Assembly (NCBI RefSeq): GCF_009689005.1
Contig: NZ_AP021879.1
Coordinates: 1,302,001-1,366,000, forward strand
Direction of reading: 5' to 3'
DNA: 64,000 bases
From: Desulfosarcina ovata subsp. ovata
GTDB taxonomy: Bacteria > Desulfobacterota > Desulfobacteria > Desulfobacterales > Desulfosarcinaceae
The notes beneath the pieces were generated by a model. That model did not search any database. It worked only from the letters and a program-made list of their open reading frames with translations, and was not told the origin of the DNA. Shown in pieces: positions 9,453-46,642 of the stretch. A program made the translations under genes and the position numbers. Numbering within the stretch: the first letter of the stretch is position 1; each line of letters opens with the position of its first letter.

Positions 9453-10871
9453 ATGAACGACAATCACGCCCAAATCAATCCTGTTTGTCAGCAGATGTTG
9501 AACTGCCGGCTGACCGGGAACATCACGCCAATCAGCTGGTTCCGCAACATATTGACTGGATCGGGCAAGCCCGATGTGGTCGCTATCATCCTTTTATCCG
9601 ATATTGTCTATTGGTACACGCCGGTAATGACCCGGGACGAGCACACCGGCGATGTGATCGGGATCCAGCAAAAATTTCAGGCCGACAAACTCCAGAAGAC
9701 CTACCAGGAATACGCCGACATTTTCAGTTTTTCCAAAAACCAGATTAAAAACGCCATCGACAATCTGGTCAGCCAGAATCTGATCACCCGCGAGTTCCGC
9801 CACATCAAAACGGGAAGCGGCCTTGCCATCACGAACGTGATGTATATCGAGCCGAATATCGAAAATATCATCAAAATTTCCAATAAATCCAGATCCCCCC
9901 AAAAAGCAGGGGGATATCCCCCTAAAAAGTTGGGGGATATCCCACCAAAAAGTTCGGGGATATCCCCCCAAAAAAATGGGGGACCTCCCCCCAAAAAGTT
10001 TGGGGTCATCCCCCCAAAAAATGGGGGGACGTATACAGAAACCACTACAGAGATTACTACAGAAACCACAACAACAACCACCGAAGCGGCGGCTGTCGAT
10101 CTTAGAAATCGTTTTCCAAAATCCATCCGCTCCCGCATCCCCAGGATTTACCAGGACCACAGGGACGTGTTGGCGAGCATCGACGCGTATCTGAAAACCC
10201 ACGGCAAGTCGTACGTCACAACCGAGCTCGATTATGCCATCCACAATTCGACCAAAAATGGCGGATTTCCCGCATTCCTGAAGCGCTCGCTGGAAAATGG
10301 CTGGGGCGCCGAGGACCTGAAGGTTCTGCAGGCAGCCCAAAAGGAGCAACGTATTCTGGAGCGCCGGCAGAAGGAAAGAGACCTTGAAGCGCTACGCGCC
10401 GAACAGGAACGCCTGGCTGATATCGAAAAGTGGGATCGACAGATTGATCAGAAAGTTCAAGAAACCCTCGAGTGTATTTCCCCAACTGAGCTGAACCGCA
10501 TCAAAACCGAGGCCTGGGAACAGGCCGAAAAGAAAACACCCAGTCTGAAAGGCCAGACAAGCCAGGAGCTTGCAGCGGCAAAGGAAAAACTGTCCACCCT
10601 TTCGGATCCCGAACGAAAGAGTCTCTTGGAGGTTGCCAAGGCAGCCGTACGTGCTTCGATCGGCAACCTGTTGGGAGAAAATCATCCCGGATTCCACAGG
10701 GCGGTGGATAGCCAGGTGCTCAAGGAAATCCAGGAAAGGTATCCCCTGCACACGCCCCTGACCGACCTCTGGAAAGAGCGCGTCAAGACGGAATCCGATC
10801 GGATTTTGAAAGTCATGGTCATACGAAATTACGGGCTTTTGAAAAGCCAAACCGTCGGGGACTCGCCATGA
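9453..10871 (+). CDS. Winged-helix replication-initiator-like protein
   Basis: 472 residues. Residues 20-135 match the HTH family found in plasmid and phage replication modules. They include PISWFRN, VVAIILLSDIVYWYTP, the KxxFSKNQIKNAIDNL winged-helix segment and ITNVMYIEPN. A proline/glycine/lysine linker (about 148-195) is encoded by G- and C-tract repeats and is followed by a Thr/Glu stretch. The C-terminal half is helical and charged (coiled coil around 295-340). A good Shine-Dalgarno (GGAGG) lies 9 bases before the ATG. It is the first gene of the element and overlaps the next by ATGA. A replication role is inferred from family character and position. Confidence 0.6.
   Translation: MNDNHAQINPVCQQMLNCRLTGNITPISWFRNILTGSGKPDVVAIILLSDIVYWYTPVMTRDEHTGDVIGIQQKFQADKLQKTYQEYADIFSFSKNQIKNAIDNLVSQNLITREFRHIKTGSGLAITNVMYIEPNIENIIKISNKSRSPQKAGGYPPKKLGDIPPKSSGISPQKNGGPPPKKFGVIPPKNGGTYTETTTEITTETTTTTTEAAAVDLRNRFPKSIRSRIPRIYQDHRDVLASIDAYLKTHGKSYVTTELDYAIHNSTKNGGFPAFLKRSLENGWGAEDLKVLQAAQKEQRILERRQKERDLEALRAEQERLADIEKWDRQIDQKVQETLECISPTELNRIKTEAWEQAEKKTPSLKGQTSQELAAAKEKLSTLSDPERKSLLEVAKAAVRASIGNLLGENHPGFHRAVDSQVLKEIQERYPLHTPLTDLWKERVKTESDRILKVMVIRNYGLLKSQTVGDSP
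9893..10028 (+). repeat. Iteron-like repeats inside the initiator-like gene
   Basis: About six imperfect units of 21-24 bp with the pattern CCCCCC-AAAAA-NNN-GGGG-GATAT, in frame with the surrounding gene. Neighbouring units form GGGGGATATCCCCC palindromes. An A/C-rich tract follows (10029-10085). An initiator gene with iterons inside it is the arrangement of lambda O and several plasmid or phage replication genes, so this may be the element's origin. Runs of G and C could alternatively form quadruplex or hairpin structures. Confidence 0.6.
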
Positions 10872-39798: not shown

Positions 39799-40250
39799 AA
39801 ATAATGGAAAATCCAACCGCAAAATGACGCTTAAGGAGGATCTATTCAACAAGGCCGGCGGCGCCGGCGCCATGGTGAGCGTGTTCACCCAATCGCTGGC
39901 TGATATTACCGCCGCCATCGGCGATCAGATGGCCCGTAAGATCCTGGACAACCTGAATACCAAGATATTCATGCGCGTCAACGACCCCTTGACAGCCAGG
40001 TATGTCAGTGATTCCTCGGGTACTCGAAAGAAATACGATCCTTTTCTTCAGTTGGGGGGCGGTATCACCATGCGCTGTTCGGAGGAAGCGGCCGTGCGCC
40101 CGGAAGATGTACTCAATTTGAACAGACGTATCTTCTTTCTATTCGGCATCAATGGCCGGTACAAGGGAAAGACCGAACTGGTCAAACCGTCCAGATTAAA
40201 GGTGGAGTACCCTGACATTATCTCCAATGCGGTTTAAAAAGGAATCCTCC

Positions 40251-41009: not shown

Positions 41010-41880
41010 GGATTTCTCTCAAGATGCCCGGGACCGATCTCTTTTCCTGGTCCCTTCGACATTGGATACAGCTGCAAATAGGGGCGATCGTTTAGATACC
41101 CGCCCGCTCCGGGAGGCAAGGTGGATTGAAATCCAGCGTATCCAGCCGGACCCGAACCAACCCAGAAAAACCTTTGTTCAGGAAACCCTTGAGTCCCTTG
41201 CCCGATCCATCCGCGAGATCGGCGGCATCATCGATCCGATAACGGTCCAATTTTCTGAAAATGAAGATGGTTTCCTGATCATCAGTGGAGAGCGGCGTTA
41301 TCTGGCCGCCAAGATCGCCGGTCTCGACACGCTTCCCTGCATCATCAAACAACCCGATGATAAAACCCGCTTTCTCATGCAGTTTATTGCCAACATCCAG
41401 CGGGAAGATATCCCGCCCCTGGAAGAGGCCGCAGCCATTCGGCGATTGGTTCAGACCTTCGGGTTCACCCAACACGAAATCGCAAAACTGATCAATAAAT
41501 CAAAAAGCTATGTCAGTCAGGTCCTGGGCCTGGAGCGACTCTCCGATGAAGCCAAAAAGAAAGTTCAGACGTCTGAACTTTCCAAAGAGGTTCAGATTCA
41601 GGCATCCCGGGAAACGGAACCTGAAAAGCAGATTGAAATCCTGAAGATGGCATCCGATGGGAAAAAGACCGTTCGGGATATCCGCAATCAAACCAGACAG
41701 GGCGAGGTCCAAAAGCCGGATCACAATGAGACTTTCAGCCAGTGGACTTGGCGATCAAAAAAGGGACGGTTTACGGTGTCGGTACGGTTTATGGAGAAGC
41801 ATCCTTCCGAAAACAAGACGAACATGGTTCGGGTTGCTTTAAAGGAAGCGGTCAATCAGATTTCTGGTAAGTGCAGATAA
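41002..41880 (+). CDS. parB: Partition protein ParB
   Basis: 292 residues from the ATG at 41002, in parA overlap. The CTPase/ParB box is present (IQPDPNQPRKTF, GGIIDPITV, ISGERRYLAAKIAG), followed by the HTH (TQHEIAKLINKSKSYVSQVLGLERL). The C-terminal part is short and basic. It binds parS-like sites near the partition locus. I did not locate those sites by eye. Confidence 0.93.
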   Translation: MAKDFSQDARDRSLFLVPSTLDTAANRGDRLDTRPLREARWIEIQRIQPDPNQPRKTFVQETLESLARSIREIGGIIDPITVQFSENEDGFLIISGERRYLAAKIAGLDTLPCIIKQPDDKTRFLMQFIANIQREDIPPLEEAAAIRRLVQTFGFTQHEIAKLINKSKSYVSQVLGLERLSDEAKKKVQTSELSKEVQIQASRETEPEKQIEILKMASDGKKTVRDIRNQTRQGEVQKPDHNETFSQWTWRSKKGRFTVSVRFMEKHPSENKTNMVRVALKEAVNQISGKCR

Positions 41881-41973
41881 ACCGGCGGTGAGTTGAGAGA
41901 GCAAGAGGCCCGTGCCAATGAGAATGAAAGAATCAGTCGGTGAGCTGATCGATGGATAGGCCCATAGCTCCTT

Positions 41974-42069
41974 TTTGGTATCAATGGTCGGTACAAAGGG
42001 AAAACCGAACTGGTTGATTCATCCCGGATAAAAGTGGAATTTCCAAGCATTACATCAAAAGTCGCTTAA
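41974..42069 (+). pseudogene. Second traD 3'-end remnant
   Basis: Thirty-one codons plus stop, FGINGRYKGKTELVDSSRIK..., match the end of traD (FGINGRYKGKTELVKPSRLK...) at about 70 percent identity. Nothing upstream (41881-41973) is related. This is the tail of another, diverged traD, placed after parB and before the toxin gene. It suggests an old duplication or recombination between related elements. Confidence 0.75.
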
Positions 42070-42143
42070 TAACATCGAAAAGGCCCCAAAACGCTTTCGA
42101 ATGTTGGTGTTGACAGATGGTAACACGAAGGTTACTTATATTT

Positions 42144-44243: not shown

Positions 44244-45023
44244 ATGGAACGAATTTTTCGAAAACTCGAACGATATTTTAGCGCATGGAAAATCGGTATC
44301 CTGAATCCGGACAGAGGGCTATGGTCGCTTTCGCCCTCAGTGAATAAGCTGGGATATTTGAAAGCAATGAACGCCAACGGCTATCACATCTTCATAAAGC
44401 CTGAGGATGAAAGCCGCTTCCTGCTTTTGGATGATATCCCGGGAAACAGGCTGCTACACCAAAAGGAGTTGAAACGTTTTAAACCCGGACGTCTCGTGGT
44501 GGAAACCAGCCCCGGCAATTTTCAGGTATGGATCAAAGCCGGCCGGAGCATCAGCAATCCGGAAAAAAGATACTGGATCAGGTTTTTCCGCGCAGATTCC
44601 GCCTGCGATCCGAATTTGCGTTGGGGCCGCTGTCCGGGATTCCGCAATTGCAAACCAAAGTATGGTAAAAATGGACGATTTCCCCTCTCCCGGCTTGTTT
44701 GGGTGGACTGGGAAAAAGTGGCCCAAGTACCGAAGGTAACCCTGCCGAAAAGAACAGTTGATCGGCTGCCAATCAAGGTAAAAGCAATAGAGCAACGTCT
44801 ATCGGGCAACCCCATTTTGCGTACCGATTACGATCGCGGGGATGAGTCGGCAACCGATTTTGCCTATGCGCTAGCATTGCTTCGCCGGGGAACGGATCCG
44901 GAAGTCATCGCCGACAGGCTGTTGCAAGAAAGAAAAGATTGGACCCACCACAAAGGCCAACGGCGCCAGGCCGCTTACCTTCAGCGCACGATCAGGCGCG
45001 CCGTCGAGATCATCAATCAATAA
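44244..45023 (+). CDS. RepB-type DNA primase
   Basis: 259 residues from the ATG at 44244. The core matches the archaeo-eukaryotic primase fold of RepB-primase proteins. It includes NGYHIFIKPEDES and LLLDDIP (likely metal-binding acids), VVETSPGNFQVWIKAG, and a RCPGFRNCKPKYG loop with cysteines. A C-terminal helical part (ATDFAYALALLRRGTDPEVIADRLLQER) is typical of the PriCT-like tail. It is expected to prime replication of the element or of incoming strands. Confidence 0.8.
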   Translation: MERIFRKLERYFSAWKIGILNPDRGLWSLSPSVNKLGYLKAMNANGYHIFIKPEDESRFLLLDDIPGNRLLHQKELKRFKPGRLVVETSPGNFQVWIKAGRSISNPEKRYWIRFFRADSACDPNLRWGRCPGFRNCKPKYGKNGRFPLSRLVWVDWEKVAQVPKVTLPKRTVDRLPIKVKAIEQRLSGNPILRTDYDRGDESATDFAYALALLRRGTDPEVIADRLLQERKDWTHHKGQRRQAAYLQRTIRRAVEIINQ

Positions 45024-45058
45024 AGAAGAGGTCTAATTCTTAAATCCAACCCCAAATC

Positions 45059-45136
45059 CGGGGTACCGCAATGGTTCCCCGATACGGTGGTGTTCTCCCT
45101 TTGGTGGGAACCAGTGCGGTTTTATCCAAAGGGAGG
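45059..45136 (+). promoter_or_regulatory. Structured leader RNA of DUF932 gene, copy A (RBS-sequestering)
   Basis: Hairpin 1: CGGGGTACC (45059-45067) pairs with GGTTCCCCG (45073-45081) with one mismatch. Outer helix: CTCCCTTTGG (45095-45104) pairs perfectly with CCAAAGGGAG (45126-45135), which contains the ribosome binding site GGGAGG. An inner AACC/GGTT stem closes a loop ending TGC. The ATG follows 6 bases after the GGGAGG. Copy B before radC has the same architecture with paired changes. It resembles the published radC RNA motif by name and gene context, from memory. Confidence 0.85.
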
Positions 45137-45142
45137 CAAACA

Positions 45143-45943
45143 ATGAAATCACAAATTATTCCCCTGACCAATGACCAAATCGTCGAATTGGCTCCGGCTG
45201 CTGGAGCGATAAACCCACACGAAACGGTTTCCGACCGGTATAGCTTTGTGCCAACTATCGAGGCTGTCGATCTGTTGAGGTCGGCCGGATGGCAACCCGT
45301 GCATGTGAAGCAATCCGGAACAAGGAAAAATGACCGCAGCGGCTATCAAAAACACATCATCCGATTCATGCAGGGATCCCTTTCAACCGACCGGGAACGC
45401 GTCGATCTGGTAATGGCCAACTCCCATGATCGCGGGTGTGCGTTTAAGCTTTGTGCCTCGATCTGGCGTAAAATATGCGGAAATGGATTGATGGTATCCT
45501 CGAAACTGTTCACTTTTTCGCACAGACATGTCGGCTTTGACATAACCGCTTTTTTGAATTCTGCCTACCAGATTGCCGAAGGTGCAGGAGATATCGCCGC
45601 ACAAGTCAATGATTTAAAGGCGATAGACCTCTCCCCGAATGAAAAAGGCGTGTTCGCCATGGCTGCGCACAAACTGGTTTATGACGATATCGAAAAGGCA
45701 CCGATTTTGCCAGCACAGCTACTTCAGGAACGGCGCTACGACGACCAAGGCAATGATCTGTGGACGACATTCAATGTGGTCCAGGAAAACATCATGAAAG
45801 GGGGCATATATGGAAGTAAGCGAAATGTGAATGGCCATATTCGTCGAGTCAAGACCCGCCCTGTGAAATCCATTGATCGGGATGTCAAGCTCAACAAGGC
45901 ATTGTGGGTCCTGACCGAAGAGATGGCCAGACTAAAAAGCTGA
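45143..45943 (+). CDS. DUF932 phage/plasmid-like protein
   Basis: 266 residues from the ATG at 45143. The family pattern includes SDRYSFVPTIEAVDLLRSAGWQP, HIIRF, LVMANSHDRGCAFKLCASIWRKICGNGLMVS and YHRK-like later segments with WTTFNVVQENIMKGG. DUF932 proteins are common on plasmids, phages and conjugative elements near radC-like and SSB genes. They are suspected to act on DNA, and no mechanism is established. Its leader RNA is shared with the radC gene next to it, so both are likely controlled in the same way. Confidence 0.85.
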   Translation: MKSQIIPLTNDQIVELAPAAGAINPHETVSDRYSFVPTIEAVDLLRSAGWQPVHVKQSGTRKNDRSGYQKHIIRFMQGSLSTDRERVDLVMANSHDRGCAFKLCASIWRKICGNGLMVSSKLFTFSHRHVGFDITAFLNSAYQIAEGAGDIAAQVNDLKAIDLSPNEKGVFAMAAHKLVYDDIEKAPILPAQLLQERRYDDQGNDLWTTFNVVQENIMKGGIYGSKRNVNGHIRRVKTRPVKSIDRDVKLNKALWVLTEEMARLKS

Positions 45944-46010
45944 ATAAGTAGACAGGCAACGCTGTACGGTTCTTCAAAAAATGCGTTAAATCAAACAAGA
46001 AATCCCCAGA

Positions 46011-46087
46011 ATCGGGGAACCGTAAAGGTTTCCCGATGGGGATGCCCTCCCTATTCCTGGGAGCCTTTGCGGCTGACAATAGGGAGG
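46011..46087 (+). promoter_or_regulatory. Structured leader RNA of radC gene, copy B (RBS-sequestering)
   Basis: Hairpin 1: ATCGGGGAACC (46011-46021) pairs with GGTTTCCCGAT (46027-46037). Outer helix: CCTCCCTATT (46046-46055) pairs perfectly with AATAGGGAGG (46078-46087), covering the ribosome binding site. The inner stem AGCC/GGCT has the same loop end TTTGC as copy A. Against copy A, the lower half of the outer helix changed on both strands (TTTGG/CCAAA to TATT/AATA) and the inner stem changed AACC/GGTT to AGCC/GGCT, so structure rather than sequence is kept. Confidence 0.85.
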
Positions 46088-46093
46088 ATGAAA

Positions 46094-46642
46094 GTGAAAA
46101 AGAAAGAATATCGTTTTTATTCCTATAAGCTGCATATGGTCAAGGAACAAGAAATCCGCTTCTTGAGTGACCAGGCAATCTACAATAGCTTCTCCGGCTC
46201 CAAATTAATCAAAAAGGTAATCCGCCAACTCGGTCAGACTGATCGGGAAAACTTCGTGGTGGTGATGCTGAATACAAAGCTAATACCCATCGGCACAAAC
46301 CTGGTATCCACTGGAAGCCTTACCAGTTGTATCGTGCAACCCAGGGAGATCATTAAAGCGGCATTGAACATGCCTTGCAAAGCCTTGATCCTCGGACACA
46401 ATCATCCATCAGGAGATTCCTCGCCTTCCATGGAAGACAAACTGATCACCCTCATGATAATGGCGTCTGCGCAACTGTTCGATGTTGATATTCTGGATCA
46501 CATTATCGTGGACATGGATTCTGATGCCTACCTGTCTTTCGCGGACGAGAAAATTATCGAAGATACGAAACGAAAAGTACGTTCCGTATTGGATCAAATC
46601 TCAAGGATGCAAACAAAAATAGGAAGCAAGGAGACATCATGA
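46094..46642 (+). CDS. radC: RadC-like JAB-domain protein
   Basis: 182 residues from the GTG at 46094. I chose it over the ATG at 46088 because that ATG abuts the GGGAGG, whereas the GTG has the same 6-base spacing as the DUF932 gene with the twin leader. The JAB/MPN metalloprotease-like motif is intact: EIIKAALNMPCKALILGHNHPSGDSSPSMEDK with HxH...D zinc ligands. RadC-like proteins of mobile elements have no proven role in repair. It lacks the N-terminal HhH domain of chromosomal RadC. Confidence 0.88.
   Translation: MKKKEYRFYSYKLHMVKEQEIRFLSDQAIYNSFSGSKLIKKVIRQLGQTDRENFVVVMLNTKLIPIGTNLVSTGSLTSCIVQPREIIKAALNMPCKALILGHNHPSGDSSPSMEDKLITLMIMASAQLFDVDILDHIIVDMDSDAYLSFADEKIIEDTKRKVRSVLDQISRMQTKIGSKETS

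Follow-up and report, generated by a model that had tools for sequence, protein, structure and literature searches.

Translational riboswitches and erm attenuators control access to the ribosome binding site by a logic of sequestor and antisequestor, and a structured RNA known as the radC RNA motif precedes DNA-processing genes of mobile elements. The radC RNA motif is entered under Proteobacteria in a table of PMC2864571. In the MS2 maturation-gene leader, according to PMC6733600, the Shine–Dalgarno sequence (SD) is hidden in the final fold and accessible in an earlier fold. The same paper describes sequential, mutually exclusive folds that decide SD access in the hok and aapA3 type I toxin mRNAs, where transient folds prevent premature toxin translation (PMC6733600).

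We have analysed two leaders of Desulfosarcina ovata subsp. ovata that, in the reading we consider probable on the strength of structure prediction and comparison with relatives, would be default-OFF bistable translational switches in mRNA, turned ON when the first hairpin captures the 5′ half of the second. The genome is a single contig of 7.63 Mb; the window referred to below is the whole 64-kb stretch analysed. The window carries, on the forward strand like the elements of its two leaders given below, a gene for a DUF932 protein (45143–45943, 266 aa; Pfam PF06067, E = 1.4e-31) and a radC-like JAB gene (46094–46642, 182 aa; Pfam PF04002, E = 1.1e-32). Since their neighbours encode a RepB-type primase, SSB, ParA, ParB, a TraG/TraD C-terminal piece and an integrase, the locus resembles part of a conjugative or integrative element. 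The window also holds a direct repeat of 102 nt (40139–40240 and 41971–42072, 71% identical), one copy at the 3′ end of a TraG/TraD-like ORF (39824–40237) and the other after the ParB ORF, which ends at 41880. Contig NZ_BBCC01000025.1 of Desulfosarcina cetonica, a species of the same genus, has both leaders and DUF932, 93% identical.

The DUF932 leader (45050–45136) and the radC leader (46004–46087) are each built of two hairpins: hp1 at the 5′ end, then hp2, which has the ribosome binding site as its 3′ strand. In the DUF932 leader, hp1 is predicted at 45050–45090, with base CCCC at 45050–45053, arm GGGG at 45060–45063 and loop GCAAT at 45068–45072, and is kept in D. cetonica. The anti-SD strand of its hp2, CTCCCTTTGG (45095–45104), pairs with CCAAAGGGAG (45126–45135) to make the outer helix, which encloses the inner stem GGGAACC/GGTT with loop AGTGC; the SD strand as a whole, CCAAAGGGAGG (45126–45136), includes the SD GGAGG at 45132–45136, six bases from the ATG at 45143, and is hidden in this predicted fold. 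In the radC leader, the predicted hp1 (46004–46041) is made of CCCC at 46004–46007, arm GGGGAACC at 46014–46021, loop GTAAA at 46022–46026 and GGGG at 46038–46041. Its hp2 has the anti-SD strand CCTCCCTATT (46046–46055) in an outer helix with the SD strand AATAGGGAGG (46078–46087), around the inner stem AGCC/GGCT with loop TTTGC; here the SD GGAGG (46083–46087) also stands six bases from the start codon, GTG at 46094. The original prediction, made from the letters of the stretch, had proposed just such a twin structured leader with the SD in the 3′ strand and a six-base spacing, and both copies have it, in sequence and in predicted fold; only the 5′ hairpins begin slightly earlier than it placed them, at 45050 and 46004. 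Its preference for the GTG start of radC also holds, because the in-frame ATG at 46088 directly adjoins the SD and GTG at 46094 is thus the likelier start.

Both leaders fold more stably than dinucleotide shuffles, with z = −3.1 for 45040–45146 and z = −5.4 for 45990–46100 (none of 200 shuffles as stable in either case); the shorter stretches gave z = −3.7 (DUF932, 45054–45136; 2 of 200) and z = −5.0 (radC; 0 of 200). That the SD is hidden in the ground state of the leaders is well supported by prediction. Paired changes between the two copies had been taken as direct evidence of selection on RNA structure. The changes are real, with only two pairs altered on both sides; that they amount to direct evidence has no support from the window alone. 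In the window-type alignment A3, which joins the two window leaders (W1, W2) with the two of D. cetonica, 91.3% of cells pair in the OFF structure, and its two pairs changed on both sides were reached by 341 of 500 shuffles, so that evidence for selection on RNA structure comes from the relatives. Covariation in these four sequences was not above shuffles for either the OFF structure or the ON structure described below.

Membership of the radC RNA motif (RF01754), which had been suggested for these leaders, was not borne out: a covariance search of the 64-kb window gave no match at or above the gathering score, the cut-off being 40 bits. Neither leader matches any Rfam 15 family at gathering score, and relaxed thresholds over 44950–46150 yielded four chance-level matches (E 4–10), all to other families and none to RF01754. 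There was no RF01754 match in the whole genome and none over the cut-off in 192 class genomes, four of which had a match at E 0.1 or better; a weak match of 26.7 bits was seen at locus L097. Control genomes were likewise without a match over the cut-off, so that the genome searches lack a positive control; the direct scans of the leaders do not depend on them. At the leader loci of relatives no Rfam family reached gathering score; in six related loci searched up to E 1, a single sub-threshold match lay outside the leader, and none was to RF01754.

A second fold, overlooked in the original prediction, arises from complementarity between part of hp1 and the 5′ half of hp2. In the DUF932 leader the hp1 loop and 3′ arm, ACCGCAATGGTTCCC (45065–45079), are complementary at 14 of 15 positions to the hp2 interior, GGGAACCAGTGCGGT (45106–45120), which would form the inner stem-loop in the OFF state and become the partner of hp1 in the ON state, in a duplex of 15 nt. 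In the radC leader the corresponding segment, ACCGTAAAGGTTTCCC (46019–46034), is complementary to the predicted hp2 interior GGGAGCCTTTGCGGC (46059–46073), and in the ON fold the anti-SD strand can pair with GATGGGG at 46035–46041. Kissing of the two apical loops, our initial reading, is contained within the longer 15-nt duplex and was abandoned. The DUF932 leader of D. cetonica is predicted to favour the alternative fold, with a ACCGCAATGGTTCCC-type hp1 segment on a GGGAACCAGTGCGGT-type hp2 interior, and across the A3 sequences 97.3% of cells pair in the ON structure versus 91.3% for OFF. The idea that the leaders switch thus gains support from prediction, with hp1 itself as the capturing element.

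Leaders of this kind were found in 14 assemblies, the window's included, before radC, DUF932, ssb, recT, exonuclease, helicase and other genes. Two covariance models were used. The first, R1, was built from the four window-type leaders only. The second, R2, was built from five leaders: two of G074 (before DUF932 and before a gene start at a contig end that by eye resembles the BuS5 JAB gene), two of the Desulfosarcina sp. BuS5 plasmid NZ_CP087953 (before DUF932 and JAB) and one of a radC paralogue in the window's own genome. Scanning relatives with a model that includes the window's own copies, much as proposed alongside the original prediction, did reach other leaders: R1 matches the leader of a 787-aa gene of G021 related to the G179 helicase (E = 5.6e-5), the own-genome radC leaders (E = 0.00095 and 0.0021) and the ssb leader of G649 (E = 0.0013). 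It also gives matches of similar E that are no such leader, at window positions 9966–10038 (E = 0.01) and at L115, with no gene behind (E = 0.00055); the R1 match in G166 was rejected, having no gene behind it. The site at 9966–10038, matched by both models, is a coding CCCCCAAAAA-type repeat and was rejected as a leader. Imperfect CCCCCAAAAA-type repeats of ∼20 nt fill 9870–10035, within the ORF 9453–10871, and encode a GG-I-PPKK-like protein repeat; these repeats mimic hairpins and produced false model matches.

R2 also picked up another radC paralogue and a gene of 212 aa in the window's own genome, and radC and an SNF2-like helicase, twice, in G179. Leaders were added in G021, G013, G053, G110, G144, G052 and a Desulfobulbaceae MAG by means of R2, folding, homology and a pattern scan. 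Elsewhere in the own genome, L108 (846000–865500) and L070 (1385000–1390500) contain radC and the 212-aa protein, with an exonuclease-like gene at 855 kb, each of these genes having an L-type leader. An R2 scan of the phylum led outside the class to G609 and G649, whose 19-kb regions hold seven and eight leader-bearing genes, respectively, for ssb, recT, a PD-(D/E)XK nuclease, an AAA ATPase, DUF3150 and small proteins; the Pfam assignments were made on G609 proteins and one G649 DUF3150. The phylum scan took in ten other genomes, and these two yielded leaders; matches in G468 and G620 lack a start codon with SD, and the remaining six were covered by the scan only.

Among 389 genomes of the class, 40 had an R2 match of E 0.1 or better, four of them at E ≤ 1e-8 (G000, G074, G077 and G179); at the matches of four of the other 36 (G353, G042, G193 and G299) no leader stands before a start codon with SD. 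Several homologues of DUF932 and radC lack such a leader, among 11 DUF932 and 20 radC loci examined. The leader is present at four of the 11 DUF932 loci read (L009, L012, L013 and L018), L008 and L017 being one contig; L021–L023 and L025 were scanned by model and pattern only, and L014, with two hairpins before DUF932, is uncounted. For radC it is present at five of 20 loci (L077, L081, L091, L094 and L096); three were unreadable by script, and at one of these, L082, the leader was recovered by the pattern scan. Peptide patterns retrieved nothing related to DUF932 or the G179 RadC from viral contigs. A 211-aa protein (L065:9255–9890) has relatives in viral contigs (583 of 600 among the matches listed) and matches phrog_11717, of unknown function; the three pattern-scan hits in 80 viral loci with relatives of this protein were judged unrelated.

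The relatives share one layout, P (CCC), A (GGGAG plus loop), A′ (CUCCC), Q (GGG), B (anti-SD) and C (SD), with predicted pairs P:Q, A:A′ and B:C in the OFF fold and A:B, usually with A′:Q inside and C free, in the ON fold. Examples of A with its B are TACTGGGGAAAACA with TGTTTTTCTCAGTA, GGGAGCGGATATATT with AATATGTCCGTTCC and, from the single-region set of G609 and G649, ACCGGGAGGAGACA with TGTCTCCTCCCGGT. The captured strand is the anti-SD in most relatives and the hp2 interior, alone or together with the anti-SD, in the window leaders; the hp2 interior is also used by one small-protein leader each in G609 and G649. Counting back from the CCC of hp1, the adjacent base is A or U in all 18 families, and the next one is A in 16 of them. 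Since the genes sit among those for conjugation, partition, primase and ssb, the hairpins might instead act at the DNA level, in transferred single-stranded DNA, as a promoter or protein site. We regard this as very improbable: in the leaders listed, hp2 stops at the SD (in part by construction, the searches being anchored on start codons), and a simple scan of 44900–46150 found no sigma-70-like promoter.

The fit of hp1 to its own hp2 proved specific. In a swap test, the RNAduplex energy of each hp1 was computed against each downstream part up to the SD; as the leader types could not usefully be aligned together with MAFFT, families were compared in this way, with no third model. Over all 18 families the own hp1 was best in 15, and none of 20,000 permutations reached the native sum; for the 14 families not found via complementarity it was best in 11, again with 0 of 20,000. 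After five leaders were added, the figures were 17 of 23 and, for those not found only via complementarity, 13 of 17 (0 of 100,000 permutations each); removal of the G649 ssb leader, first seen in the pattern scan, left 13 of 16 (0 of 100,000). The fit holds within single regions as well: the own hp1 was best in five of seven leaders of G609, where 2 of 5,040 permutations were as good, and in five of eight of G649, where 1 of 40,320 was, namely the true assignment alone. Against dinucleotide-shuffled downstream parts the mean z over 23 leaders was −3.5, the weakest being the G649 ssb leader (z = −1.3, 56 of 500). The hp2 loop alone showed no specific fit to hp1 in the L-type leaders (45,682 of 50,000 permutations as good).

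In a plain sequence alignment of orthologous G609 and G649 leaders, the ON helix has 78 pairs the same, 16 changed on one side, 4 compensatory and 20 broken. The A-B-C pattern scan itself returned 29 hits at a score of at least 64 versus 0.5 expected, a count that includes alternative starts, paralogues and some plain terminators; families found by it alone are given apart from the main tests because the scan is circular for complementarity. An anchored pairing profile was dropped as evidence, as it favours the native register. Selection on the captured fold is supported by the swap tests. A leader in which hp2 simply keeps translation low by hiding the SD, and hp1 protects or insulates the RNA with no second functional state, agrees with OFF being the predicted optimum in nearly all leaders and with the high barriers given below; it leaves the fit of hp1 to its own hp2, and not to others, unexplained, and we hold it to be unlikely.

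The order of synthesis bears on how the two folds might interchange. When the RNA was cut just before the SD, the predicted optimum had hp1 paired downstream in all 30 leaders computed; at full length hp1 was on its own again in 28, the exceptions being the D. cetonica DUF932 and G053 radC leaders. This flip was seen in 13 of 14 native families versus 40 of 182 with swapped hp1, and in 106 of 360 with shuffled hp1 over 18 families; the cut-transcript test is by itself not specific, as unrelated twin-hairpin sites also refold without their 3′ strand. Across the 30 leaders, the best fold with the SD open is only 0.8–10.9 kcal/mol less stable than the optimum, and it is the captured fold in 28, that is, in all except the G021 DUF932 leader and that of its 62-aa neighbour. 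When 95 nt before the start codon were folded, including upstream bases, the captured fold was the optimum in five of 30 (the D. cetonica DUF932 leader, the G179 helicase, the radC-like genes of G074 and BuS5, and a 196-aa gene of G021), and in most of these five the SD is paired instead to bases further upstream. Direct-path barriers in the model are 12–23 kcal/mol from hp1 to the captured fold in nascent RNA and 10.6–26.3 kcal/mol from ON to OFF. Since the former is slow against transcription, the ON fold may need help. We read the energies as pointing to a default OFF state and a long-lived ON state that would be set during transcription if hp1 stays open.

The same energies suit, in part, a kinetic timer of the MS2 kind, in which a nascent open fold would be translated briefly and then shut itself, with no outside trigger. 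This variant overlaps with our main reading: the captured fold is the optimum before the SD is made, and the ON to OFF barriers would keep the ON fold long-lived once formed. The first step, at 12–23 kcal/mol, is probably too slow for the 20–40 nt between hp1 and the SD unless polymerase pauses, and we think a self-acting timer rather unlikely, though it deserves consideration.

Two kinds of attenuation fit the leader set poorly, since the features that they require are found in a minority of leaders. If the captured fold were an intrinsic terminator, a U-run should follow it; at least six U in the 8 nt after the captured helix occur in four of 33 leaders, and the other 29, both window leaders among them, lack such a run, which makes transcription attenuation a faint prospect as a general explanation. 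The U-rich leaders are L072:8920–9001, L082 radC, the L072 196-aa gene and the L208 exonuclease, and this subset perhaps works by attenuation. Many leaders have a GGGAG-like core in hp1, and the DUF932 leader has an ATG at 45071, as an Erm-type translational attenuator with a leader peptide in hp1 would; an ATG 4–12 nt after the core is present in only four of 33 leaders (13 of 33 when GTG and TTG are counted), and we give this explanation the least credence of all.

For the bistable switch that we favour, the steps would be as follows. In the OFF state, the predicted ground state of nearly all leaders, hp1 would be closed on itself and hp2 would pair the SD with the anti-SD strand. In the ON state, predicted to be metastable, hp1 would open and its arm and loop would capture the 5′ half of hp2, taking its interior in the two leaders of the window and the anti-SD strand in most relatives; the SD would then be free because the captured half keeps hp2 from forming. 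As transcription would yield hp1, then the anti-SD strand and then the SD, each transcript's fate would depend on whether hp1 is kept open at this point, and anything that opens hp1 or delays its closure could turn the leader ON. Computation shows the SD pairing, the specific hp1–hp2 complementarity and the recurrence before many genes; the ON state would, we infer, occur in cells and raise translation. A common signal may act on all leaders of an element, e.g. an RNA-binding or unwinding protein or pausing of RNA polymerase, during transfer or damage. Such a trigger is not expected to recognize the hp1 loops, which vary between leaders in step with the strand that each pairs with; its target would have to be the stems, the flanks or transcription.

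Taken further, mobile elements of sulfate-reducing bacteria and their phylum might carry a regulon of bistable switches on the genes of a recombination module (ssb, recT, exonuclease, helicase, radC, DUF932, AAA and DUF3150), answering to one common signal and with a private hp1–hp2 code for each switch; this extension is tentative, and we would not yet bet on it. If true, mobile elements would have an RNA layer of control, gene by gene, for their recombination and DNA-processing genes, one with no Rfam 15 match. With a complementary code particular to each switch, swaps and compensatory mutants make a clean test, and a common trigger would reveal what tells such an element to make proteins that handle single-stranded DNA.

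We found no description of such leaders in a search of titles and abstract openings in the open-access literature. The logic of sequestor versus antisequestor is already known; what seems to be new is the leader family itself, its position ahead of a DNA-processing module and the code private to every copy. Like the radC RNA motif, the window's second copy stands upstream of radC; the consensus of RF01754, a model of 149 positions, has another layout than the window leaders. With translational riboswitches and erm attenuators the present leaders share sequestor/antisequestor logic. They differ from metabolite riboswitches in having no conserved ligand-binding core, the hp1 loops varying with the partner strand, and from erm attenuators in having no general leader peptide. 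The MS2 leader is close in that the present leaders, too, are predicted to have the SD sequestered at full length and exposed earlier. MS2 is an RNA phage whose leader forms a cloverleaf, whereas here one design recurs ahead of many genes of DNA elements, with hp1 predicted to re-form in the OFF fold. Compared with the hok and aapA3 mRNAs, where transient folds prevent premature translation, the alternative fold of the present leaders would do the reverse and free the SD.
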